From Halarcobacter anaerophilus (GTDB lineage: Bacteria; Campylobacterota; Campylobacteria; Campylobacterales; Arcobacteraceae), in NCBI RefSeq assembly GCF_006459125.1, contig NZ_CP041070.1, positions 744,001 to 808,000 on the forward strand: a DNA stretch of 64,000 bases, given 5' to 3'. The translations under genes were made by a program, and so were the position numbers. Positions within the stretch are counted from its first letter, which is position 1; every line of letters begins with the position of its first letter. Below the pieces are notes generated by a model that worked only from the letters and a program-made list of their open reading frames with translations, made no database searches and was not told the origin of the DNA. Of this stretch, positions 1,973 to 56,558 are shown piece by piece.

Positions 1973-2770
1973 ATGTTAGAAGCTTTACAATATGATTTTA
2001 TTCAAAATGCAATAATATCGGGAATCCTTGTCTCAATAGCAGCAGGAATAATAGGTTCTTTGGTTGTTGCAAACAAAATAACTTTTTTAGCAGGAGGAAT
2101 TGCACACAGCTCTTACGGTGGAATAGGACTTGCTATTTTTCTAGGAATCCCCGTTCTTTTCGGAGCAACCGTTTTTGCCGTTGCTACTGCTATGGTAATT
2201 GCGGCACTTACAATAAAAAGTAGAAAAAGAATAGATGCAATTATAGGTATAATGTGGGCATTTGGAATGGCTGTCGGGATAATTTTTGTAGATTTAACGC
2301 CGGGATATAATGTAGACTTGATGAGTTATCTTTTCGGTTCTATTATTGCAGTCTCACATGAAGATATAGTTTATCTTGCAATATTAGATGTTTTTATTAT
2401 AGGGGCGGTTCTGCTTTTTTACAAACAGATTTTAGCAGTATCTTATGACAGCGAGTTTGCTCTTTTAAGAGGAATTAATGTTAGATTCTTTTATACGTTG
2501 ATTCTTATATTAGCAGCATTAAGTGTAGTTGGAGCAATAAAAGTTGTAGGACTTATTTTAGTTATTGCACTTTTGACGATTCCGACGTATTTAGCAGAGA
2601 TGTTTGCCAAGAAGCTTTCATCAATGATGATAATAAGTGCTTTTTTAGCTACAATATTTACGCTTATAGGACTTGTAATATCTTATTATTTCGATATTAG
2701 TTCAGGAGCAAGTATTATTGTTGTCGGAGTTGCAGCTTTATTAATATCAAAACTTTTAGGAAAAAAATGA
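1973..2770 (+). CDS. znuB: Metal ABC transporter permease (ZnuB/MntB-like, ABC-3 family)
   Basis: A 265-residue inner-membrane protein with about eight hydrophobic segments. The family marks are FLAGGIAHSSYGGIGLA (near residue 38) and GLILVIALLTIPTYLA near 210, as in ABC-3 permeases for Zn, Mn or Fe. It follows the ATPase gene by 3 bases and overlaps the next gene by four bases (ATGA), so the three are co-transcribed. No periplasmic solute-binding protein gene is adjacent, which is unusual; it must be encoded elsewhere or shared. Confidence 0.88.
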   Translation: MLEALQYDFIQNAIISGILVSIAAGIIGSLVVANKITFLAGGIAHSSYGGIGLAIFLGIPVLFGATVFAVATAMVIAALTIKSRKRIDAIIGIMWAFGMAVGIIFVDLTPGYNVDLMSYLFGSIIAVSHEDIVYLAILDVFIIGAVLLFYKQILAVSYDSEFALLRGINVRFFYTLILILAALSVVGAIKVVGLILVIALLTIPTYLAEMFAKKLSSMMIISAFLATIFTLIGLVISYYFDISSGASIIVVGVAALLISKLLGKK

Positions 2771-3603
2771 ATAAAAAAATAGAATTAGGTGTTATAAATA
2801 CCCTAAAAGTAAGCAGAGTTTCAGAACCTGGAATATATCTTTGTTCTCTTGAAAACGAAGAGGTTTTACTTCCAAACTGTTATGTTTCAAGCAGTATGCA
2901 AATAGGTACTGAAATTGAGGTTTTCATCTACACCGACAGTGAAGACAGAATAGTTGCAACAACACTAAAACCTTATGCTATGAAAAATGATTTTGCGGCT
3001 TTAGAAGTCGTTGATAGTACAAAGTTCGGTGCTTTTTTAGATATGGGACTTCCAAAAGATCTTTTAGTTCCTAAAAATAGACAAAAATCTACTTTTCAAA
3101 TAGGTAATTTAAAAGTGGTAAAAATAGTAGAAGATGAAAAAACCCACAGATTAATAGGTACGGAAAAGTTTGTTTTAGAAAAATTTCCCGAAGATTTGAA
3201 AAAAAATGATGAGGTTGAAATCTTACTTTATATGAAAACACCTTTAGGTTTTAAAGTTATCGTAAATAACAAATATGAAGGTTTGATTTATCATAACGAA
3301 ATTTTTGAACAAATAAATGTTGCAAATAGAAGAAGAGCCTTTGTAAAATATATAAGAGATGACGGGAAAATTGATATTTCTTTACAGAAAATAGGGGTAA
3401 AAAAGAGTAACGATAATCCTGAAAAAATTTTAGAAATTTTAGAAGCAAATAATGCCCAAATGAATTTTACGTATAAAAGTGACCCTGAAGATATCAAACA
3501 AAACTTCTCAATGAGTAAAAAAGCTTTTAAAGCTGCTTTAACCAAACTCTTAGAAGAGAAAAAAATAGAACTTTTAGAGGATTCTATCAAACTAAAAGTT
3601 TAG
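2767..3603 (+). CDS. cvfB: CvfB-like S1 RNA-binding protein
   Basis: A 278-residue protein of the CvfB/YitL type. It holds several S1-like beta barrels (roughly residues 5-65, 68-130 and 145-215), with phrases such as KFGAFLDMGLPKDLLVP and YEGLIYHNEIFE, and a C-terminal winged-helix (SKKAFKAALTKLLEEKKI). Members bind RNA and were linked to virulence-factor expression in Staphylococcus. Its role here is inferred by family. The start codon overlaps the permease stop as ATGA, indicating translational coupling with the transporter genes, though a functional link is not evident. Confidence 0.85.
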   Translation: MNKKIELGVINTLKVSRVSEPGIYLCSLENEEVLLPNCYVSSSMQIGTEIEVFIYTDSEDRIVATTLKPYAMKNDFAALEVVDSTKFGAFLDMGLPKDLLVPKNRQKSTFQIGNLKVVKIVEDEKTHRLIGTEKFVLEKFPEDLKKNDEVEILLYMKTPLGFKVIVNNKYEGLIYHNEIFEQINVANRRRAFVKYIRDDGKIDISLQKIGVKKSNDNPEKILEILEANNAQMNFTYKSDPEDIKQNFSMSKKAFKAALTKLLEEKKIELLEDSIKLKV

Positions 3604-43750: not shown

Positions 43751-44911
43751 TTATTTATTTTCTTCCAAAAGATGTTCATATCTTTTATCCGTTAATAGTT
43801 TTAAAAAGGCTACTAAAGCATCGATTTTTCTATCATTTTGTTTTTTTGCTTTTAATTCATCCAAAGATATAGTATCTTTTACTTCCGGTTCTTCCCAAGG
43901 TTTTTTTGTTTCCGGATTTATTTTTCTATCTTTATTGTTATATTTATCATAAAACTCAACAACTGTTCTTAAATCTTTAAAAACTCCGTTATGCATATAT
44001 GGAGCGGTTACGGCAACGTTTCTTAGTGTAGGAACTTTATATTTTCCTCTTTTGCTTTTGTCCGTAACCTCAGGATTTGCCAGTAATCCGTCGTCATGTA
44101 TTTTTACTCCGTTTTTAGCTCTTAAATTTTTGTTTTCAGGTACACCTATATTATGATATTCATAATTGGTAAAAGTTTCTCCTTTTTTATCTTCTCCTTT
44201 TAAAACATGGCAAGTTGCGCATGAGTTATTGTTATTTGAGAAGAACAAAGATCTTCCTAAATCTTCAAGAGGAGTCAAATCATATTTACCTTCTAAAAAT
44301 CTGTCATATTTTGAATCAAAAGGTGCAAACTCTTTTGTCATTTCAAACTTTTCGATAGAATCAGTCATAGCCCAATATGCTTTATCTACAGAGTTGAAAA
44401 TATTGTCTCCGTAAATAGTTTTTAGAGTATTAATATAATACTCATTCTCTTTTAATCTATCAACTACGCTTTTTTTGTCGGGCATTCCCATTTCAATAGG
44501 ATTTAAAGGAGGTCCGCCTGCTTGTCCTGCCAGTGTTGCTTCTCTACCGTCCCAAAATTGACCGCCTATGTATTTTTTCTTTTTTTTGTCATAATGGAAT
44601 TTAGGACTAAACATTGCGTAGGTTGCCGTAGGAGCTTGTCTGTCTCCTATTGATTTTCCGTTATCGCCCATAGATGCCATAGAGTTTACACCGTTGTTTC
44701 TGTCATCGGTAAAACCTTTTTGGGGATTATGGCAGGTTGCACAAGCCTGAGTTCTGTTTTTAGATAAATTTTTATCAAAAAAAAGCGCTTGTCCTAGTTG
44801 TTCTTTCATTTTTATTTTTTTTGCCAAATCTTCTTTTGTGGGTGTTGTATTTGAACAAGCATTTAAAAGAAATGCACTTAAAATAAAAGTGCCGAATTTC
44901 AAATATTTCAT
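43751..44911 (-). CDS. Di-heme cytochrome c peroxidase/MauG-family lipoprotein
   Basis: A 386-residue exported protein with lipobox LLNACS (Cys near 19) and two heme c sites, CATCH at about 57-61 and CATCH near 237. Other family marks are LFFDKNLSKN, FWDGREATLAGQAGGP and VAVTAPYMHNGVFKDLRTVVEFYDKY. It would reduce hydrogen peroxide or oxidise a periplasmic substrate. Its ATG overlaps the preceding hydroxylase stop by one base (TAATG), so it belongs to the imelysin operon. Confidence 0.92.
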   Translation of the reverse strand: MKYLKFGTFILSAFLLNACSNTTPTKEDLAKKIKMKEQLGQALFFDKNLSKNRTQACATCHNPQKGFTDDRNNGVNSMASMGDNGKSIGDRQAPTATYAMFSPKFHYDKKKKKYIGGQFWDGREATLAGQAGGPPLNPIEMGMPDKKSVVDRLKENEYYINTLKTIYGDNIFNSVDKAYWAMTDSIEKFEMTKEFAPFDSKYDRFLEGKYDLTPLEDLGRSLFFSNNNNSCATCHVLKGEDKKGETFTNYEYHNIGVPENKNLRAKNGVKIHDDGLLANPEVTDKSKRGKYKVPTLRNVAVTAPYMHNGVFKDLRTVVEFYDKYNNKDRKINPETKKPWEEPEVKDTISLDELKAKKQNDRKIDALVAFLKLLTDKRYEHLLEENK

Positions 44912-45813
44912 TAATTTTTCCTTCTTAAAATATTTATAAATGGATAAAATATAATTTTAATAAGCGACTCATAGTTTTTCATCTGTTCTTTTCTTAAACC
45001 GAATTTCAAAACATTCACTTCATGTGAAAGTTTTAAACTTCCGAAAACTCTGTCCCAAATAGCCAAATAACTTCCGTAATTTTTATTAAAATATTTTTTA
45101 CTGTGGTGTATTTGGTGTTGTTTTGGGGATATTAACCATTTTTCCAAAAATTTAAAGTATCCCAAAGGAATATGAGAGTGTCTTAAGTTAGAACCTAAAA
45201 GAGAAAAAACAAAAACAAAAATATTTGCTCCCAAGATTTCATAAAGTCCGATTTTTGAACCAAAAAAGTATATAAAAACTCCGGTTACCAAACCTATACT
45301 TAAAGAGTATCTAAAGCCGTATAAAATATTTTCAACGGGATGAACCCTGTAAAAAGTTAAAGGATTTAAAACTTTTGCACTATGATGTACTTTATGAAAA
45401 TCCCATAATAACGGGATTGTATGTAGAAATCTGTGAAGCCAATATCTAGTAAAGTCACTTACGACAAAGATTGTAATTGTATATAAAACAATAATCATTT
45501 CATAAGAGATAGATTGAATATGATTAAAACCAAAGTTATAGTATAAGTATTTATTTACTGAAAATGCTACTGTTTTTGCACTGATTACAATAGGAAAAAT
45601 CAGTGAAATTTTTATAAAGTATGATAATAAAAAGTAGTAATAATCAAGTTTTGAACTTGGATGCAACCAAAGTTTTGAACTGAAATTTACTCTTTTATAT
45701 TTTCTGTTAAAATAGATAAAAACTATTGCTATGGCAAAAGAAGAGAGTAGATAAATCCAATAAGTTCTTCTTCCTGAATTTATCAAATACTCAAATACTA
45801 AATAATCATTCAA
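44911..45813 (-). CDS. Sterol desaturase / fatty acid hydroxylase family membrane protein
   Basis: A 300-residue integral membrane di-iron enzyme. The His clusters are visible: HRFLHTIPLLWDFHKVHHS (near 128-146) and HQIHHSKKYFNKNYG (near 236). Members hydroxylate or desaturate lipids using oxygen and two irons. It has four to five hydrophobic segments. It sits in the middle of an iron-linked operon, 12 bases after the second imelysin gene. The substrate is unknown; sterols are unlikely in this group. Confidence 0.88.
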   Translation of the reverse strand: MNDYLVFEYLINSGRRTYWIYLLSSFAIAIVFIYFNRKYKRVNFSSKLWLHPSSKLDYYYFLLSYFIKISLIFPIVISAKTVAFSVNKYLYYNFGFNHIQSISYEMIIVLYTITIFVVSDFTRYWLHRFLHTIPLLWDFHKVHHSAKVLNPLTFYRVHPVENILYGFRYSLSIGLVTGVFIYFFGSKIGLYEILGANIFVFVFSLLGSNLRHSHIPLGYFKFLEKWLISPKQHQIHHSKKYFNKNYGSYLAIWDRVFGSLKLSHEVNVLKFGLRKEQMKNYESLIKIIFYPFINILRRKN

Positions 45814-45825
45814 TCTAAAATCCTC

Positions 45826-46812
45826 TTAATCCCCGTCTGCTTCAATAATTTTTGCATTAATAGAGAGCTCTTCAATAATTTCCAAAAACAGAATCAAATG
45901 AATATTGCTGACCTCTTCATATAACTCTTTAGCGTTTGAAAAATCGTCATTTTTTATATTTTTAACAAGTTTTAAAGAGTTGTTTATAGATTCTCTTAAA
46001 TCTTTCACCTGTGTACCATCGGTGATTTCAAGAAGATAATCTCCGTAATCTTTAAACTCTTTATTTTCGAAAATCTCTTTGAATGTCTCTAAAATAGCCT
46101 TTATAGCATTTGCGCTGTTTTTACTAAAATAGTATTCTGCTCTGCTGTTTAAAGGTTTCCCTTCATACTTTTTAGTCTCTCCTATTACGTCTCCTATTCT
46201 CCACTCTTTTAATTTATAAGTATTTTGGATAATTGCATTGATAGTAATAGAGTTGGCTTTTTTTAAATCACTTAAAAAGTTTTTCTCTTGGAGTTTATAT
46301 TCACTTTGTATCTCTAACATTAACTCTTTTAATCTATCAAGAATTGTTAAAACAATCAAATTAACTCTTTCATTTTTTATATCTTTTGAAAAAAGAGTAT
46401 ATTCTAAAGCATTGATTGATTTAAAAGAGTTTTTAAATAGGGCAATAGAGGGTGAATCACCGCTTTTTATCGCTCTGTCTAACTGTTTTGCAATATCTTC
46501 GCTGTTGTTGTGGAAAATATCGAAATATCTTGGAAGATCGATATAATCATCGTTTAAATCTCCCAACAAATAAAAAGCTTGAACACTTTTCCAAGATTTT
46601 ACCAATGAAGTAAAATCCTCTTTTGTTTTCTTCTCTTTTTTCTCTTCTACGGATTGCTTTAAAGTATCAATATCTTTTAAAGTTCTATTTACATCTTTTA
46701 ATATAACTTTTTCATAAAGATTTTTTAAAACCTCTTTGTTGTCTTTAGTATCATCTGCAACTGCAAAAAGTGATAATAAAGTAACTAATAATAAACTTTT
46801 AATTAATTTCAT
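45826..46812 (-). CDS. Imelysin-family periplasmic protein
   Basis: A 328-residue secreted protein with a signal peptide (LLLVTLLSLFAVADD). It is helical and has the imelysin phrases VKSWKSVQAFYLLGDLND (near 70), NALEYTLFSKD (near 133, in place of the classical G-x-H-x-x-E) and KEWRIGDVIGETKKYEGKP. Imelysins (peptidase M75, IrpA and EfeO relatives) are iron-regulated and thought to bind iron or act in its uptake. It lies two bases after the di-heme gene. Confidence 0.82.
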   Translation of the reverse strand: MKLIKSLLLVTLLSLFAVADDTKDNKEVLKNLYEKVILKDVNRTLKDIDTLKQSVEEKKEKKTKEDFTSLVKSWKSVQAFYLLGDLNDDYIDLPRYFDIFHNNSEDIAKQLDRAIKSGDSPSIALFKNSFKSINALEYTLFSKDIKNERVNLIVLTILDRLKELMLEIQSEYKLQEKNFLSDLKKANSITINAIIQNTYKLKEWRIGDVIGETKKYEGKPLNSRAEYYFSKNSANAIKAILETFKEIFENKEFKDYGDYLLEITDGTQVKDLRESINNSLKLVKNIKNDDFSNAKELYEEVSNIHLILFLEIIEELSINAKIIEADGD

Positions 46813-46813
46813 T

Positions 46814-48214
46814 TTATACCTCTTCTAAAAATTTAAGTAGTTTTTCTCTTTTACTTTTTTCAAGATTCATATAAGACTCTTTTATGTTTTGAGCCTCTCC
46901 TTGATGCCAAAGAATAGCTTCTTGGAATGTTCTTGCTCTTCCATCATGTAAAAGTCTGGGTTTTTTCCCGTTTATTTTTTCATGAAGTGCTAATCCCCAT
47001 AAAGGAGCCGTTCTCCACTCTGTGCCTGTTGCTCTAAATTCACTTCTTTTATCGGCTAAGCCTTCTCCCATATCATGAAGCAGCAGATCCGTAAAAGGAG
47101 CAATTTCTATTCCGCTTTTTGTTGTAAATGAAGATATATGACATTTGTTACAACCGATTTGCTTAAATATTCTTAGACCCTCTTTATACTCTTTTGTTTT
47201 TTCTGCCGTATATGTTTTTCTTTTTTCTACATAATAAGTTATTGCATCTAATCTTTCTTGTGTTATATCAAAAGGATCTCTTGCTTTAGGTGCTTTTTTA
47301 CACTCGATTTGTTTTGAAGTACAAGTATCAAAAGGGTAATAAACAGTTGTTAATCCCATATCGTTATTTGCAGCATCTGCCACTTGGTGTTTAACGGAAG
47401 TTATATTTGCTTTCCAGCTAAATCTTCCTAATTCAACTCTTTTTGTAATAGGTGAATAAGCATAATTTGCTTTTCCTGATATTCCGTCACTGTTTCTGTC
47501 AAATTCATCTTCGTTTTTAAGAATATCCTCTTTTGAAATATCTTCTAATAAACCTATACCGTTTAAAGAAGGTGCTAGTCTAAAAGTAAGAATTGAGTCT
47601 TTATGAAGTTCGCCGTATTGCAGCTGTTTTAAAGCATAATGGGGTTTTAAAAGAGTATCAACTTCTCCGTCAGGGAATGTTATTTGAATTTTCTCATAAG
47701 TAATACCGGCTTTTGCTTCAAAGTTTACACCGTGAACACCGTTTATTGATATTTGGTTTCCATAACTTGGTTCGGGTACTAATCCCATTTTTTCTATAAG
47801 GGCTTTATGCTCTTTAGAGTTATTACTCTTTATTGATAGTTTTGGAATAAGACTTCTTGAAAAATCACCGTTTTTATTATACAAATTTCCTCTTCCGTTG
47901 CCCGGATGGCAACTTGCACAGGTATTTGCATTAAACAAAGGACCTAAACCGTCTCTTGCAGTTGTAGCACTTGGAGCTTCAACCCAAGGAATTCTAAAAA
48001 AACTTTTTCCTAAAATAAATTTGTCGTACTGCTCATCACTAAGTTGTGATATTGGTTTAAGAAGTAAAGAGTTATTTTTATCAGTTGATAAATCTTTGCT
48101 TGAACTATTAACGGCAAAAAGCCCCATAGCAAAAATTGCTATAAGGCTTTTATTTAAGGCTTGTTTTGTAATCGAAAAATTAAATCTTAGTTTCTTCTGG
48201 ATCTGTAACATCAT
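46814..48214 (-). CDS. Di-heme oxidoreductase (DUF1111, thiol oxidoreductase-like)
   Basis: A 466-residue c-type cytochrome. A signal-like segment is at about 22-36 (LIAIFAMGLFAVN). Heme sites are CASCH in FNANTCASCHPGNGRG (near 100) and CNKCH in GCNKCHISSF (near 355). The C-terminal LWGLALHEKINGKKPRLLHDGRART and AILWHQGEA segments, in that order, are typical of the family. It is regularly found next to imelysin genes in Fur-controlled operons. Its start overlaps the upstream imelysin gene by 35 bases. Confidence 0.88.
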   Translation of the reverse strand: MMLQIQKKLRFNFSITKQALNKSLIAIFAMGLFAVNSSSKDLSTDKNNSLLLKPISQLSDEQYDKFILGKSFFRIPWVEAPSATTARDGLGPLFNANTCASCHPGNGRGNLYNKNGDFSRSLIPKLSIKSNNSKEHKALIEKMGLVPEPSYGNQISINGVHGVNFEAKAGITYEKIQITFPDGEVDTLLKPHYALKQLQYGELHKDSILTFRLAPSLNGIGLLEDISKEDILKNEDEFDRNSDGISGKANYAYSPITKRVELGRFSWKANITSVKHQVADAANNDMGLTTVYYPFDTCTSKQIECKKAPKARDPFDITQERLDAITYYVEKRKTYTAEKTKEYKEGLRIFKQIGCNKCHISSFTTKSGIEIAPFTDLLLHDMGEGLADKRSEFRATGTEWRTAPLWGLALHEKINGKKPRLLHDGRARTFQEAILWHQGEAQNIKESYMNLEKSKREKLLKFLEEV

Positions 48215-49523
48215 CTGTACTTAACGAAACTCCGTTTGCTTGTGCAACTGCAACCATTTGGTCACCTAATTTTCTCAACTCGTTTTTAAGTTTTACAATA
48301 ACTTTTGCTTGAGGATTATCAGGTCTTATTTGATAATCGAAGTGAGCAGTAGTTTTTGCTATTTTATCAATGCTTGCAATTTTTACTTCAATTGATTTCA
48401 TAAGAGCAATAATTTTTGCTTTTTCTTCAACTGAAACAGCATCTAAAAGAGAAGAACCGTAAGATTTACCCATATATGATGAAGTTAAAACATTTTTAAA
48501 TCCTAAATAGTTTGTAACAATATCTCTGTGTGTATTATCAGAAAAACAAGAGTGTTCATCTTCTTCTGACGGAGTTAATACAGCAACGGCAATTCTTTCG
48601 TTTGCAAGTTCTGATTTTATAAATACACCCATTCCTGCAATAATTTGTTTTAAAGCAGTATTTGTCGGAATATTTTTATTTGCATCTTTTCCTGTTAGTT
48701 TTCCTAAAAAGGCATTTTTATATAATCCGTTATCTTCCCACGCATTAGATACTGTTTCTAAATCATTAACAATTTTATCCGTTGATGCTTTTAGGTATGT
48801 CAATCTTCTTTGAGCGTTTTTATCTGTTGTAAAATCAGATAAAGGTCTTTGTCCCGCAGTTAAAGGTCCGTTTGTTATTGAATCTTTCATAAAGTTTGAA
48901 TAATCTTGATCTTGTCCCCAAAGTAAAAATTCAACTGCATGATAACCTGTAGATACATTTGCTTCTCCACCGTTTTCATTTAAAGCAGTAAGTGAATCAA
49001 TTGTGATTTTAGAAACATCAACTGCACTTGAATCTTCACCGCCTGGATTAAAACTACCTTTTGTATCGATAATATTTCCTGAAGTTGTTTTTCCGTCTGC
49101 ATCTGTTGTATAATCAATCATATTTTCATCTAAAGGCCAAGCATTGATTTGTCCTTCAAGTGCTCCGTAAGTATCTGCTACCCAACCTTCTTCTGCATCA
49201 ATAGGACCGTTTGAAAGTCTGAAAATTTCAGTTTGCCCGTAAGATTCTCTTGAAGTAAGCCAAGCTTTTTTTGCATTTTCAAGTGTTGTGCCAGTGGGAT
49301 TTTTAACAAAAGCATTAATTGCTGCTTGTAAAGCTTTTGCATCTTTTAGTGCATCACCGTAAGTATCTTGAGCAATTTTTGCATAAGAGTTTAATATATT
49401 TTCCGTTTTATTCTCAACTTTTATCGATGCTGTTTTTGTATTTTCAGAAGTTGTAGAACAACCTGCAAACGCTAATGCAGCTGCAAAACTTATAGAAGCT
49501 GTGATTAATTTCGTTTTTTTCAT
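48180..49523 (-). CDS. Imelysin-family lipoprotein (iron-regulated protein A type)
   Basis: A 447-residue lipoprotein with signal and lipobox (LAFAGCSTTSE, Cys near 21). It holds two imelysin repeats and the family signature GYHAVEFLLWGQDQD (near 189-203), with NAWPLDENMIDY upstream and YQIRPDNP near the C-terminus. Family members are iron-starvation-induced and bind iron at the G-x-H-x-x-E site. First gene of the minus-strand iron operon; a Fur-like site stands just upstream. Confidence 0.92.
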   Translation of the reverse strand: MKKTKLITASISFAAALAFAGCSTTSENTKTASIKVENKTENILNSYAKIAQDTYGDALKDAKALQAAINAFVKNPTGTTLENAKKAWLTSRESYGQTEIFRLSNGPIDAEEGWVADTYGALEGQINAWPLDENMIDYTTDADGKTTSGNIIDTKGSFNPGGEDSSAVDVSKITIDSLTALNENGGEANVSTGYHAVEFLLWGQDQDYSNFMKDSITNGPLTAGQRPLSDFTTDKNAQRRLTYLKASTDKIVNDLETVSNAWEDNGLYKNAFLGKLTGKDANKNIPTNTALKQIIAGMGVFIKSELANERIAVAVLTPSEEDEHSCFSDNTHRDIVTNYLGFKNVLTSSYMGKSYGSSLLDAVSVEEKAKIIALMKSIEVKIASIDKIAKTTAHFDYQIRPDNPQAKVIVKLKNELRKLGDQMVAVAQANGVSLSTDDVTDPEETKI

Positions 49524-49655: not shown

Positions 49656-49722
49656 AAGAAAAATAATACAAGAGAAAAATAACAGATTTATAAATGTTTA
49701 AGTTTATTAGATATATTATTAT

Positions 49723-49741
49723 AATAATGATTATCAAAATA
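49723..49741 (+). promoter_or_regulatory. Fur-box-like site before the 56-residue gene and the organelle-like operon
   Basis: AATAATGATTATCAAAATA, 14 of 19 to the Fur consensus, ends 16 bases before the start of the small gene. It could control that gene and the downstream ATPase operon. Confidence 0.6.
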
Positions 49742-49757: not shown

Positions 49758-49928
49758 ATGTCAGATTACAGAATAAGAGCGGAAATTAACAGGTTGGTGG
49801 AACAAAACAATATAGAAGATCCTAAAAAATCAATTTGCCCAATTATAAAAATCATAAAAATGAGACACAAGCAATTAGATACGAATAGAATTTTAAAAGT
49901 TGCAAAAGAGGTTTTTATAGAAGAGTAA
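49758..49928 (+). CDS. Small hypothetical protein under a Fur-like site
   Basis: A 56-residue protein, MSDYRIRAEINRLVEQNNIE and on to EVFIEE, basic and helical, with a single Cys (KSICPIIK, near 27). A strong ribosome site AAAGGAGA lies seven bases before the ATG. There is no membrane segment. The size, helices and place upstream of the ATPase operon suggest a small regulator or adaptor, which is inference. Confidence 0.65.
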   Translation: MSDYRIRAEINRLVEQNNIEDPKKSICPIIKIIKMRHKQLDTNRILKVAKEVFIEE

Positions 49929-50081: not shown

Positions 50082-52235
50082 ATGAACGACGAAATTATTA
50101 TAAAAAGCGTAGCAAACAACAGAGTCAGATTAAAATCCGACTTGTTTGCATTAAGTTCCAATTTGGAACTTATAGAAAATGAGTTTAAAGATATTTTTAT
50201 AGATTTTAGAAAAAATATTTCCTGTAAATCGATTATCTTTAAATATAACCTTAATATAACACTTGACAGTGTAATTGAGAGATTAAATAATTTATTTAAT
50301 ATAACTGCATCTATTCCTGCAAGTAAAGCTATATGCGGTACAAGTTGCAGCAGTTGTAGTTTGAAAAAGCATGATGAAAAGTCCTGGAAAAGAAAACTTT
50401 TTGAATTTGCTCTTTTAAGCGGTTATGCAATCTATATTTTTGTAAGTGAAAATATTTTAGGAGCAACAATTGCTTCAACTGCTTTTAGCTTAGTGGGAAT
50501 TATCTCTTTTGTAGCAGCAATTCCGCTTTTAAAAGAGTCTTTAGAGGATATAAAACAAAAAAGATTTACTCTTCAAACTTTTATGAGCGGAACACTTCTT
50601 CTTGCAATTTTCTTTGGAGAAGCAACGGCAGCTTTTGAAATTATCTATATTTTAAGAGGCGGAATGCTGCTTGAAGAGTATATTGCAAATAGATCAAGAC
50701 AAGAGATTCAAAATTTAGTTGAATTAGATGTAAAAAAAGTTTATGTTTTAGTTGATGATGTTGAGATAGAAGTAAATATAGAAGAGCTAAAACAAAACGA
50801 TATAGTTGTTTGCAGAAGCGGAGAAAAAATTCCCGTTGACGGAATAATTACCCAAGGAAGTGCTGAAATAAATGAAGCAATTATAAACGGAAGAAGCGAA
50901 CCTGAATATAAAAAAGAGTCAGATGAGGTCTTTGCGGGAACTGTTTGTGAGAGAGGAAGAGTTTTTATAAAAGTTATTGCTTTGGGAAATGAAACTTATA
51001 TCTCAAGAACAATGAGAGAAGTAGAACTCTCTTTAATGCAAAAATCTCCAAGTGAATTAGAAGCGGATAGATTGGCAAACAGACTTCTTAAACTTGGAAC
51101 AGCTTTAACAGTAGGTACTTTTTTATTAACAGGCTCTTTTAGTGCAGCCTTTTCCGTTATGATAATTATGTCTTGTCCTTGTGCAACGGTATTAGCTGCT
51201 TCAACGGCAATAAGCGGTGGAATTGCAAATGCTGCAAAACAAGGAATTTTAATAAAAGGCGGAGATGCCTTAGAAAATGTTAGTAAAAGTGAAGTTTTTT
51301 GTTTTGATAAAACAGGAACTTTGACAACAGGAAAACCCGTAATCACGGATATAATCTCTTTAAGCAATAAAGATGAAAAACTGTTATTAGAGTATGCTGC
51401 ATCGGCTGAATACAGAAATTCTCATCCTCTTGCAAATTCAATCGTAAAATATGCAGATGAAAAAAACATAGAGATAAATCAAAATATTTTAAGTGAAGTC
51501 ATTCCAGGTTTCGGAGTTAAATCAAAAATCGATGATAAAAGACTTCTAGTAGGTAACAAAGCTTTATTAAACAGATATAAAATTTCTTTAAAAGATTATA
51601 AAAATGTTAGTTCAAAACTACTAAACAGCGGCAAAACGGCAGTTTATATAGCATTGGACGATGAAATTTTAGGAGTTCTTGGCTTTACTCATGAAGTAAG
51701 AAAAGGAACAAAACAGATGATTGAGGATTTAAGACAAAGAGGAGTTAAACATATAGCTTTATTAACAGGTGATGAGGTTAAAGTGGCAAACGGTTTTGCT
51801 CTTGATTTCGGTTTTGATTCTGTTTTTGCAAATCAATCTCCTAAAGGCAAAGCCGATGCAATAGAAGAGTTGAAGAAAAAATACAAAAGCGTTGTTATGG
51901 TAGGAGATGGAGTAAATGATACTTATGCTATGAGTAAAGCAGATGTTGCAATCTCTTTTGCAGCAGGTGGAAGTGAAGCCGCTATTGCAGTATCGGATGT
52001 AGCAATCACACACTCACATCCCGAAGATATCGTTAATCTATATGATGTAAGTAAAAAAAGCTTGAATGTAGTAAATCAAAATTATTATATAGGAACAAGT
52101 ACAAATTTAGCGGGTGTTGCTTTGTCTGCCATGGGAAGATTAACCCCTGTAGGTGCGGGTTTGATCCATATCGGACATACAATAGGAATTATGGCAAACT
52201 CTTCAAGATTGGCTATTGATGATAATAATTCTTGA
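50082..52235 (+). CDS. P1B-type metal ATPase with SCPC channel motif and atypical N-G-R actuator loop
   Basis: A 717-residue heavy-metal P-type ATPase. Residues 1-80 form an HMA-like domain without CxxC but with the basic NNRVRLK, then a Cys cluster C85-x3-C89-x2-C92 before TM1. The channel motif is SCPCA (364-368), the phosphorylated Asp is D409 in FDKTGTLT, the HP locus is NSHPLANS and the hinge GDGVNDTYAMS (canonical: GDGxNDAPAL). The actuator motif, normally T-G-E-S, is N-G-R-S (269-272), which should block dephosphorylation. It may be a regulatory or structural subunit, or move metal unusually. It opens the operon; the second ATPase in the operon has a standard TGES. Specificity is not certain; by context iron. 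Confidence 0.87.
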   Translation: MNDEIIIKSVANNRVRLKSDLFALSSNLELIENEFKDIFIDFRKNISCKSIIFKYNLNITLDSVIERLNNLFNITASIPASKAICGTSCSSCSLKKHDEKSWKRKLFEFALLSGYAIYIFVSENILGATIASTAFSLVGIISFVAAIPLLKESLEDIKQKRFTLQTFMSGTLLLAIFFGEATAAFEIIYILRGGMLLEEYIANRSRQEIQNLVELDVKKVYVLVDDVEIEVNIEELKQNDIVVCRSGEKIPVDGIITQGSAEINEAIINGRSEPEYKKESDEVFAGTVCERGRVFIKVIALGNETYISRTMREVELSLMQKSPSELEADRLANRLLKLGTALTVGTFLLTGSFSAAFSVMIIMSCPCATVLAASTAISGGIANAAKQGILIKGGDALENVSKSEVFCFDKTGTLTTGKPVITDIISLSNKDEKLLLEYAASAEYRNSHPLANSIVKYADEKNIEINQNILSEVIPGFGVKSKIDDKRLLVGNKALLNRYKISLKDYKNVSSKLLNSGKTAVYIALDDEILGVLGFTHEVRKGTKQMIEDLRQRGVKHIALLTGDEVKVANGFALDFGFDSVFANQSPKGKADAIEELKKKYKSVVMVGDGVNDTYAMSKADVAISFAAGGSEAAIAVSDVAITHSHPEDIVNLYDVSKKSLNVVNQNYYIGTSTNLAGVALSAMGRLTPVGAGLIHIGHTIGIMANSSRLAIDDNNS

Positions 52236-53500: not shown

Positions 53501-53754
53501 TGTTACCGTTCATAGCAGGTATAGCAGCAGGAGCAGTTGCAGTTGTTGCATACAATAATAATAAAAAAATCAGAAAAAACGTAAATGAAGGTGCAAAAAA
53601 AGCCAAACATCTTGCCCAAGAGGGATATGAAAAAACAAAAGAGTTTGCAAAAGACGTAAAAGCAAGCGTTGATGAAAAAGTCGAGTCTTTAAAATCAAAA
53701 AAAGAAGAGAAGAAAATTGAAAAAGAGGGAGAAACAGCCAATGGCAACGAGTAG
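53500..53754 (+). CDS. Membrane-anchored amphipathic helix protein (YtxH-like)
   Basis: An 84-residue protein: one N-terminal Gly/Ala-rich membrane helix (LPFIAGIAAGAVAVVAY, residues 2-18) and a long charged amphipathic helix with repeats such as EGAKKAKHLAQEGYEKTKEF, like YtxH-type and LEA-like proteins. It overlaps neighbours at both ends. A membrane-coating or membrane-shaping role is an inference. Confidence 0.75.
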   Translation: MLPFIAGIAAGAVAVVAYNNNKKIRKNVNEGAKKAKHLAQEGYEKTKEFAKDVKASVDEKVESLKSKKEEKKIEKEGETANGNE

Positions 53755-54088
53755 TTTATCAATTAATACAGGTGCACCAAGAAATGTAACAGGGCATGTA
53801 GTAAGCGGTTCATTAGCAGCAGGGGCACTTGCTGCGGCTATAAATTATAATAAATATAAAAACGGTGAAATTCAAAAGAGTGAAGCTATTAACAGTTCAA
53901 TTAAACTCTCTGCTCAAGGTGGAATTGCAACAGGAAGTGCAATTGCAGCGGCTAATTATTTAGGGCAGGGAAATATAGTTAATATGCTTACTGCAATTTC
54001 AGTAGGTGTTATGGGTGTTTATGCAGTGGAAAAAGTAAGTGATAAATTAACTCAAAGAAAAGAAATCGAAGCAGAAGAGGAAAAATAA
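53741..54088 (+). CDS. Small two-helix Gly/Ala-rich membrane protein
   Basis: A 115-residue protein (MATSSLSINTGAPRN) with two Gly/Ala-rich hydrophobic segments, about 20-40 (VVSGSLAAGALAAAINY) and about 62-92 (GGIATGSAIAAANYLG and ISVGVMGVYAVEKV). The start at 53741 follows the ribosome site GAGGGAG; an earlier in-frame ATG at 53717 lies deeper in the previous gene. The architecture resembles the small Gly-rich proteins found in magnetosome and other organelle membranes, but no sequence family is recognised. Confidence 0.75.
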   Translation: MATSSLSINTGAPRNVTGHVVSGSLAAGALAAAINYNKYKNGEIQKSEAINSSIKLSAQGGIATGSAIAAANYLGQGNIVNMLTAISVGVMGVYAVEKVSDKLTQRKEIEAEEEK

Positions 54089-54423
54089 TGCAAAATAATA
54101 CAATAGATACAAATCCATATATAAATAATCAAAATCAGGCACAACAAGATCTTAACTTAGCAAATCAAAACCCGTATATAAGCGATAATACGACTGCTGC
54201 AAATACAAATTCAAGTCTTTTAGGCAGTTTTGATACAAATAAATTTTTATTAGGTGCCGTAATAGGAGCTGTGGGAGCTTATGTTCTTACAAATGAAAAA
54301 GCACAAAAAACAATTTTTAAAACTATTGCAAAAGGAAGTGCTTTGTTCGGTGCAGGAATCGAAGAGATGAAAGAGAGATTTGAAGACGCAAAAGCTGAAA
54401 TGGAAGCTCAAAAAGAGGATTAA
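54088..54423 (+). CDS. Membrane protein with NPYI repeats and YtxH-like helix
   Basis: A 111-residue protein. A polar Asn/Gln-rich N-terminus carries two copies of N-P-Y-I (NPYINN near 9; NPYISD near 28), which could be protein-binding motifs. Residues 50-68 (KFLLGAVIGAVGAYVL) form a glycine-zipper membrane helix and the rest an amphipathic charged helix (GIEEMKERFEDAKAEME). It overlaps the previous stop by one base and ends eight bases before the second ATPase. Confidence 0.75.
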   Translation: MQNNTIDTNPYINNQNQAQQDLNLANQNPYISDNTTAANTNSSLLGSFDTNKFLLGAVIGAVGAYVLTNEKAQKTIFKTIAKGSALFGAGIEEMKERFEDAKAEMEAQKED

Positions 54424-54431
54424 ACAGATTT

Positions 54432-56558
54432 ATGAGTTGTAATATAAAACTTTTACATAAAACTTCCAAAAGAGCAAGATTTTATTGTGAAAGCTTAAAA
54501 AATGAAGAGTATAACACTTCTTCTTTAATTCAATATTTAGAGTCCATTAACGGAATAAATAAAGTACGGATAAATAAAAAAATAGGTTCTATAGTTTTTG
54601 AACATGACGGCAGTGCGTTAAATACTATTAGAGATATTCTTTTGGGACTTGATGTAAACAAATATAAAATATGTGATACCTTCAAAGGTTCATGTATAGA
54701 TTGTATAGATGAGAGTGAACCTAGTTTAAACGGTGTAATAAGAGCAAGCAGTGTTTTAGTAGCAGAACGATTTATCTCAAATGATTTGGCAAAATTTCTT
54801 CTAACAACTGTTGCTGCAAAACCTCTTTTAGTAGAAGGAACAAAAGAGCTTTTTAAAGAGGGATTAACTTCTAAAGTTCTTGAAGCAACTGCTGTTTCGG
54901 TTAGTATTGCACGAAAAGATTATTTAGCTGCAAATAGTACCAATGCTATGCTTGAACTTGGCGAATATATTGAAGAGACTACGGTTCATAAAAGTGATGA
55001 TTTGATAAAAGAGTTGGCAAAACCAAATGTAACCAAAGCCTGGGTTGAGTTTGAAGAGAATGGAAAATTAACCCAAAAACTTATAAATACAAGTGAACTT
55101 AAAGTAGGGGATATAGTAATAGTAGGTGCTGGCGATACAATAGCCGTTGACGGTCATGTACTTACGGGAAATGCTTCTGTTAATCAAGTCTCAATGACAG
55201 GCGAGAGTGAACCTGTAGCAAAACAAAGAGGTGACAGGGTTATCTCAGGAACCGTTATAGAAGACGGAAGATTAAAAATCTGGGCTGAATACGTAGGAGA
55301 AGATACTGCAACTGCAAGAATAAAAAATTATATTGTAAGTTCTTTAAACGAAAAATCTTCTATAGGACTAAAAGCTACGAAACTAGCTGATAAATTAGTG
55401 CCTGTAACTTTAGGTTTGGCAGGAGTCTCTTATCTTATAAACAAAGATTTTGAGAGTGTTGCAGCTGTGCTTCAAGCTGATTACTCTTGTGCCCTTAAAC
55501 TAGCAACTCCCGTTGCTTTTAAATCTTCAATTTCAAAAGCGGGAAAAGACGGAATTATGATTAAAGGTGCAAAAGCTATTGAAGCTTTACATAGTGCCGA
55601 TACTTTTGTTTTTGATAAAACAGGAACCTTGACTTACGGTCATTTAGAAGTAGAATCTATTAACTCTTTTGATGAAAAGTGGGAAGAAGATGATATCTTA
55701 AATTTGACGGCAAGTGCGGAAGAACACTATTTTCATCCTGTTGCTGAAGCTGTTGTTAAAGCCGCAAAAGAGAAAGGTTTTGTTCATATGCATCACGAAG
55801 AGGTTGAATTTATTGTTGCACACGGCGTAAAAACTATTGTAAATGATAAGGAGGTCGTAATAGGAAGCAGACACTTTTTAGAAGATGATGAACAAATTGA
55901 TTTTTCTAATTATGAAGATAAAATAGAACAATGCCTATTGGACGGAAAAACTATTCTTTATGTAGGATATGACAAAAAACTTTTGGGTACTATAGGTATG
56001 AGAGATAAAGTTCGTGAAAATGCCAAAGATGTACTTCAAAAATTAAAATTATCGGGTGTAAAAAATATCGTAATGCTAACAGGTGATATAAAAGAGAAAG
56101 CGGAAGCTTTAGCTTTTGAGCTGGGAGTTGATACGGTGTATGCAAATATGAGACCCACTGATAAAGCAAATATAATAAATAAATTAAAAGAGCAGGGTTC
56201 TAAAATAGCTTTTGTAGGTGACGGTATAAATGATGCACCGGCTTTAATGAGTGCAGATGTCGGAATAAGTATGAGCAAAGGTGCCGATATTGCAAAAGCT
56301 ACAGCCGATATTGGATTATTAAAAGATGATTTGGTAGCTATTGCGGAAGTAAAAGAGTTGGCAAATAAAACAATGAAACTAATAAAATATAATTTTAATG
56401 CCACAGTAGGAATTAACAGTTTGATTCTAACAGGTGCTACCATCGGATTGTTTACCCCTATTACCACAGCTGTTTTACATAACGGAACGACTATAGGTTT
56501 ACTCTTTAATTCAATGAAGGGTGTTAGTATTAAAAATAGTATAGAAAATTCTAAATAA
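54432..56558 (+). CDS. P1B-type metal ATPase with SCA channel motif (P1B-6-like)
   Basis: A 708-residue ATPase. Residues 1-75 form an HMA-like domain lacking CxxC, with KRARF near 13, then a Cys cluster C81, C88, C91 (CDTFKGSCIDC). The channel helix reads DYSCALKLATPV (350-361) in place of CPC, the SCA-type pattern I associate with the P1B-6 class that includes FezB of ferrosomes. Catalytic parts are standard: TGESEP (256-261), D395 in FDKTGTLT, HP in HYFHPVAEA and GDGINDAPALM. Few strong hydrophobic segments lie between residues 100 and 180, so topology is unusual. Likely an iron pump loading a compartment, by context and class; not proven. Confidence 0.87.
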   Translation: MSCNIKLLHKTSKRARFYCESLKNEEYNTSSLIQYLESINGINKVRINKKIGSIVFEHDGSALNTIRDILLGLDVNKYKICDTFKGSCIDCIDESEPSLNGVIRASSVLVAERFISNDLAKFLLTTVAAKPLLVEGTKELFKEGLTSKVLEATAVSVSIARKDYLAANSTNAMLELGEYIEETTVHKSDDLIKELAKPNVTKAWVEFEENGKLTQKLINTSELKVGDIVIVGAGDTIAVDGHVLTGNASVNQVSMTGESEPVAKQRGDRVISGTVIEDGRLKIWAEYVGEDTATARIKNYIVSSLNEKSSIGLKATKLADKLVPVTLGLAGVSYLINKDFESVAAVLQADYSCALKLATPVAFKSSISKAGKDGIMIKGAKAIEALHSADTFVFDKTGTLTYGHLEVESINSFDEKWEEDDILNLTASAEEHYFHPVAEAVVKAAKEKGFVHMHHEEVEFIVAHGVKTIVNDKEVVIGSRHFLEDDEQIDFSNYEDKIEQCLLDGKTILYVGYDKKLLGTIGMRDKVRENAKDVLQKLKLSGVKNIVMLTGDIKEKAEALAFELGVDTVYANMRPTDKANIINKLKEQGSKIAFVGDGINDAPALMSADVGISMSKGADIAKATADIGLLKDDLVAIAEVKELANKTMKLIKYNFNATVGINSLILTGATIGLFTPITTAVLHNGTTIGLLFNSMKGVSIKNSIENSK

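Follow-up and report, generated by a model that had tools for sequence, protein, structure and literature searches.

A conserved P1B-type ATPase lacking the TGE glutamate and its TGE-bearing partner in an iron-linked operon

The glutamate of the TGE motif is taken to be a hallmark of every P-type ATPase. In KdpB, the E161Q change prevents the aspartyl phosphate from being hydrolysed; ATPase activity is abolished, and the phosphoenzyme is stable and reaches its highest levels (PMC7535926). TGE mutants of ATP7A and ATP7B are mislocalised to post-Golgi vesicles, and this trapping has been read as the phosphorylation state controlling location, a link that is debated (PMC5428812). P1B ATPases can also be organised by small membrane scaffolds, as in the PacL1-CtpC system of Mycobacterium tuberculosis (PMC9374683). 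The fez clusters build ferrosome iron-storage organelles, with FezB as a transporter and Fur as the repressor (PMC12574912, PMC10979944).

Here we describe an operon that encodes two P1B ATPases, A1 and A2, the first of which reads NGRS at the place where the second reads TGES. The operon lies in a 64,000-nucleotide stretch of the Halarcobacter anaerophilus genome, called the window throughout, and its features are collected in Table 1. The best sequence and structure matches of A1 were CopA and ZntA (PDB 7r0g, 4umv/4umw, 7qbz), at 26-31% identity. We found no P-type ATPase described as lacking the glutamate or as a pseudo-ATPase in the literature, of which our coverage was partial, so this is weak evidence of novelty.

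Loss of the dephosphorylation glutamate in A1

The Pfam E1-E2_ATPase match of A1 (131 bits) and its NCBIfam TIGR01525 score (460.6 bits against a cutoff of 346.25) place the protein in the heavy-metal P1B group. A preliminary description of this locus had reported NGRS in the place of TGES, an intact D409 in DKTGT, an intact SCPC channel, a hinge reading NDTYA rather than NDAPA, and a partner with both TGES and NDAPA. All of these readings hold. The translation of A1 gives N269-G270-R271-S272, S364-C365-P366-C367, D409-K-T-G-T413 and N612-D-T-Y-A616, and NGRS aligns exactly onto the TGES of the A1 paralogues.

That description had also left room for a strain-specific error, and here the observation survived the alignment of orthologues. 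Nineteen A1 orthologues were found in 397 genomes of the class, and the set grew to 26 species, the window included, after three families of one order were searched. All 26 read ING[R/H/Y]S, with arginine in 23, histidine in two, tyrosine in one and glutamate in none, and N269, G270 and S272 are kept in every one. The arginine is encoded by four different codons (AGA, CGA, CGC and CGG), thus synonymous change went on while the residue stayed, and pairwise dN/dS values of A1 lie between 0.055 and 0.13. Taken together, the codons and the low dN/dS indicate that the site is maintained and that the gene is not a decaying copy; A1 is under strong purifying selection. No support was found for a sequencing error or a pseudogene in A1, and an error, pseudogene or mutation confined to the strain has a negligible probability, being ruled out by 26 independent species with open frames as well as by the codons and dN/dS. 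In the maximum-likelihood tree the histidine and tyrosine variants form one small clade nested among the arginine bearers. Since position 271 tolerates both, arginine as such is not essential.

The rest of the catalytic apparatus is kept. Eighteen other functional positions (DKTGT, HP, G478, G563-D564, K590, D609-G610, N612-D613 and CPC) are invariant across the 26 orthologues, and the TM8 histidines H696 and H699 (HxxHT) are invariant too. Of the features that mark a P1B pump, DKTGT, the SCPC that precedes it, the HP of the N domain and the GDGxND of the P domain each occur in 26/26, and the (T/S)GE glutamate in 0/26. As a control, GE is present in 49/49 A2 sequences and in every other P-type ATPase examined in these genomes; one of these ATPases reads NGE, which shows that the threonine can vary while the glutamate stays. 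The invariant positions, the dN/dS values and the control ATPases together argue that the loss in A1 is selective, old and maintained, and the substitution is firmly established as fixed and ancient. By descent A1 is a P1B ATPase; judged by its motifs it is not a complete catalytic pump of that group, half of the cycle having been selectively lost.

The hinge deserves less emphasis than it had been given. The NDT change is real and fixed, but it carries little weight alone because other active-looking ATPases of the same genome vary there as well (NDS and NDAL). It is probably of minor importance, and we do not count it as a second lesion. A neighbouring acid that could compensate for the lost glutamate was also considered and rejected: E273 varies among the orthologues (E, Q, R or D), and E265 corresponds to the I(D/N)E glutamate that TGE-bearing pumps ordinarily have as well, so no compensating acid is visible. 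In the AlphaFold model of A1 the pLDDT is below 50 over residues 269-272, thus the direction of the R271 side chain cannot be read from it.

Used as a single query against named genomes, A1 returned only one distant ATPase, from Azospira, which has TGE. Beyond the class no A1 orthologue was found on plasmids, where all matches fell below 60% identity and the best of those listed was at about 35%.

Table 1. Features of the A1/A2 operon and its upstream region (window positions)
Feature	Position	Strand	Basis
Possible Fur box, TATTATAATAATGATTATC	49717..49735	+	15/19 to E. coli consensus; consensus match only
A1, P1B-type ATPase without TGE glutamate, 717 aa	50082..52235	+	Translation, Pfam/NCBIfam, alignment
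A1 codons 269-272, NGRS replacing TGES, Arg codon AGA	50886..50897	+	Orthologue alignment, codons
A1 codons 364-367, SCPC metal site, same in 26/26	51171..51182	+	Orthologue alignment
A1 codons 409-413, DKTGT phosphorylation site, same in 26/26	51306..51320	+	Orthologue alignment
A1 codons 612-614, NDT hinge (A2: NDA), same in 26/26	51915..51923	+	Orthologue alignment
HMA_2-domain small protein, 104 aa	52301..52615	+	Pfam PF19991, 42 bits; syntenic in all loci
Ferritin-like protein (rubrerythrin / DUF2202-like), 263 aa	52615..53406	+	21.8 bits, under 22.8 cutoff
YtxH-like small membrane protein, 84 aa	53500..53754	+	Sub-threshold Pfam; syntenic
MamC-like small membrane protein, start codon uncertain	53717..54088	+	NCBIfam NF038051, E 5e-9, 36 bits against cutoff 100
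YtxH-like small membrane protein, 111 aa, conserved NPYI and GxEExKER motifs	54088..54423	+	Sub-threshold Pfam; conserved motifs
A2, partner P1B ATPase, 708 aa, TGES, NDAPA, D-Y-S-C-A for CPC	54432..56558	+	NCBIfam, alignment
SpoIIAA-like (STAS) protein, last gene of the operon, 226 aa	56568..57248	+	Pfam PF11964, 73.9 bits; syntenic

The operon, the partner ATPase and the links to iron

The eight genes run in the order A1, HMA_2, DUF2202/rubrerythrin-like, YtxH-like, MamC-like, YtxH-like, A2 and SpoIIAA-like, and the same order is seen in 18/18 A1 orthologue loci, although in one of these (L033) the contig ends after A2 and hides the last gene. The YtxH, rubrerythrin and MamC assignments are weakly supported, as all scores are below the curated cutoffs; for the ferritin-like protein a relative is annotated as DUF2202 in CP134847 while the Pfam match itself is sub-threshold. 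The listed start of the gene resembling magnetosome MamC, at 53717-54088 (+), overlaps the preceding YtxH-like gene, and this gene is kept in every operon copy examined.

A2 is present in 19/19 of the A1-bearing genomes of the class and A1 was never found without it (hypergeometric 6e-10, with the genomes treated as independent though they are related). The distances of the two proteins are correlated (Mantel r 0.88). Each forms a separate, well-supported clade with a long stem in the maximum-likelihood tree, hence A1 did not arise recently by copying of A2. The pairing of a glutamate-less ATPase with a TGE-bearing one, which the preliminary description had singled out, is thus found in every A1-bearing genome of the class, and in the same operon in all 18 loci. 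The pairing is obligatory in this sample. The description missed the iron-linked, ferrosome-like nature of the operon, the optional status of A1, and the replacement of CPC in A2, which reads D-Y-S-C-A in 49/49 sequences. P1B-6 ATPases of the FezB type carry S-C-A.

A2 is found in 136/397 genomes of the class and A1 in 19/397, and the 20 loci with A2 only that were examined have the same operon minus A1, which is the optional first gene of an otherwise widespread operon. In one genome (G210, locus L087) the A1 slot holds a free-standing gene for a 135-aa A1-like N-domain (HMA_2, 29.7 bits) at 2507-2914 (+), which ends 12 bases before the HMA_2 gene.

These last observations have to be weighed in considering A1 as a pseudo-ATPase, whose fold and N-terminal HMA_2-like domain would serve to buffer metal or as a subunit in assembly, with the ATP chemistry irrelevant. 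A relative in which only the N-domain fills the slot, and an operon that is common without A1, are what such a role could produce. It is nevertheless unlikely, as the complete invariance of DKTGT, TGD, K590, GDGxND, HP and GxG in 26 species would be unexpected if catalysis did not matter.

The surroundings of the operon point to iron. In most loci a gene of the Fur family (Pfam FUR, 116 bits) directly precedes A1, or the HMA_2 gene where A1 is absent, which places the A1 slot between the Fur and HMA_2 genes. This adjacency is seen in most loci outside the genus of the window; within that genus the Fur gene is not next to A1. The putative Fur box upstream of A1 is the joint best consensus match in the 64 kb, and FeoB lies near the operon in many loci. 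Plasmid relatives of A2 are found beside TonB receptors in Arcobacter (64-68% identity), beside an iron ABC transporter in Azospirillum, and beside FeoA and TonB receptors in Cereibacter; these plasmid operons have no A1 (L137, 6780-11254; L138, 6076-10115; L140, 6650-10659).

Two further features of the upstream region were noted. An open frame of 56 aa at 49758-49928 (+), between the Fur-box-like site and A1, is conserved (55% identity) in the same place in locus L030 and has no Pfam match. Divergent from the operon, at 43751-49523 (-), lie genes for a cytochrome c peroxidase-like protein, a sterol-desaturase-like protein, two imelysins and a di-haem oxidoreductase, and this set is conserved beside the operon in L030 and L031.

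A possible half-cycle role for A1

The fixed loss of the glutamate in all 26 species suggests that A1 is probably a phosphorylation-locked partner or switch for the complete pump A2 and not an ordinary transporter. The reading we favor is that A1 works through half a cycle, forming a long-lived phosphoenzyme whose task, set off by metal, is to scaffold or switch A2 and the small membrane proteins, and we consider the chances of this to be about evenly balanced. A1 would retain the metal site, ATP binding and phosphate transfer to D409, which make up the first half of the cycle, and would lack the second, the glutamate-activated hydrolysis of the aspartyl phosphate. Studies of other P-type ATPases lead one to expect that arginine at 271 would block dephosphorylation, and by analogy with KdpB E161Q and the TGE mutants of ATP7A and ATP7B, A1 should load metal, phosphorylate D409 and stay so. 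Once loaded by metal and ATP, A1 could then accumulate as a long-lived phosphoenzyme, most likely in an E2P-like state. Side chains of arginine, histidine and tyrosine can bond to phosphate and may favor this trapped state. In its phosphorylated form, reached in response to metal, A1 may serve a ferrosome-like iron storage system as a sensor, scaffold or switch that acts on A2 and on the small membrane proteins. However, most operons do well without A1, and this counts against such a role.

Some turnover may be left in A1, through slow spontaneous hydrolysis or through another residue. A stronger version of this would make A1 a working but slow pump that is dephosphorylated by another route, be it a different side chain, a water activated by His, Tyr or Arg, or a partner protein acting in trans, and that supplies metal to the compartment that A2 also feeds. 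The residues of the metal, ATP and phosphorylation sites are intact, including the invariant SCPC and the two TM8 histidines, and histidine could in principle act as a base. However, arginine, which is found in 23 of the 26 orthologues, is a poor general base, the two nearby glutamates offer no compensating acid, and the KdpB glutamine mutant has no ATPase activity at all. We regard a slow pump as rather unlikely.

A bolder form of the half-cycle reading can be proposed, though only tentatively and with more doubt than belief: A1 would be a natural P-type ATPase from which evolution has removed the reset step alone, so that a lasting, metal-triggered aspartyl phosphate could be the signal or structural lock by which a partner iron pump, or the assembly of an iron-storage organelle, is controlled. 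A subfamily without the glutamate that still has all it takes to be phosphorylated would amount to a naturally occurring version of the E-to-Q trap mutants, and an example of a P-type pump serving as a switch. The operon is common in this order of bacteria and, as far as the texts searched show, unstudied, and it gives access to the study of ferrosome-like iron storage there.

Comparison with known systems

The setting of the operon resembles the ferrosome (fez) cluster, and a possible identity with it is a lead. By the descriptions of fez clusters in the texts consulted, the two share a P1B ATPase with an unusual transmembrane metal motif, small membrane proteins, an upstream Fur-family gene and a FeoB that is often near. 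A second, glutamate-less ATPase goes unmentioned in those texts (PMC10979944, PMC12574912). None of the operon proteins gave a Pfam DUF4405 match at E 0.01, as would be looked for in FezC, a DUF4405-like haem protein that may not be universal.

The PacL1-CtpC system offers another likeness, in that a P1B ATPase is co-transcribed with small single-TM scaffolds and several ATPases may share one platform (PMC9374683). It differs in that PacL is an actinobacterial DUF1490 protein, that the system serves zinc efflux and not iron, and that a glutamate-less pump is not its topic (PMC9374683). No Pfam match to DUF1490 was found among the proteins of the A1 operon.

With CopA and ZntA, A1 has in common the P1B fold, the domain order, and the DKTGT, CPC, HP and GDGxND motifs. 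It is set apart from them by the missing TGE glutamate, the HMA_2-like N-domain, the invariant TM8 HxxHT and the fixed N-G-[RHY]-S. The nearest likeness for the loss itself is KdpB of KdpFABC, where the TGES loop is a control point and either E161Q or phosphorylation of Ser162 leads to a stable phosphoenzyme (PMC7535926). There, however, the change is a laboratory mutant or a reversible modification, whereas in A1 it is a natural and fixed state.
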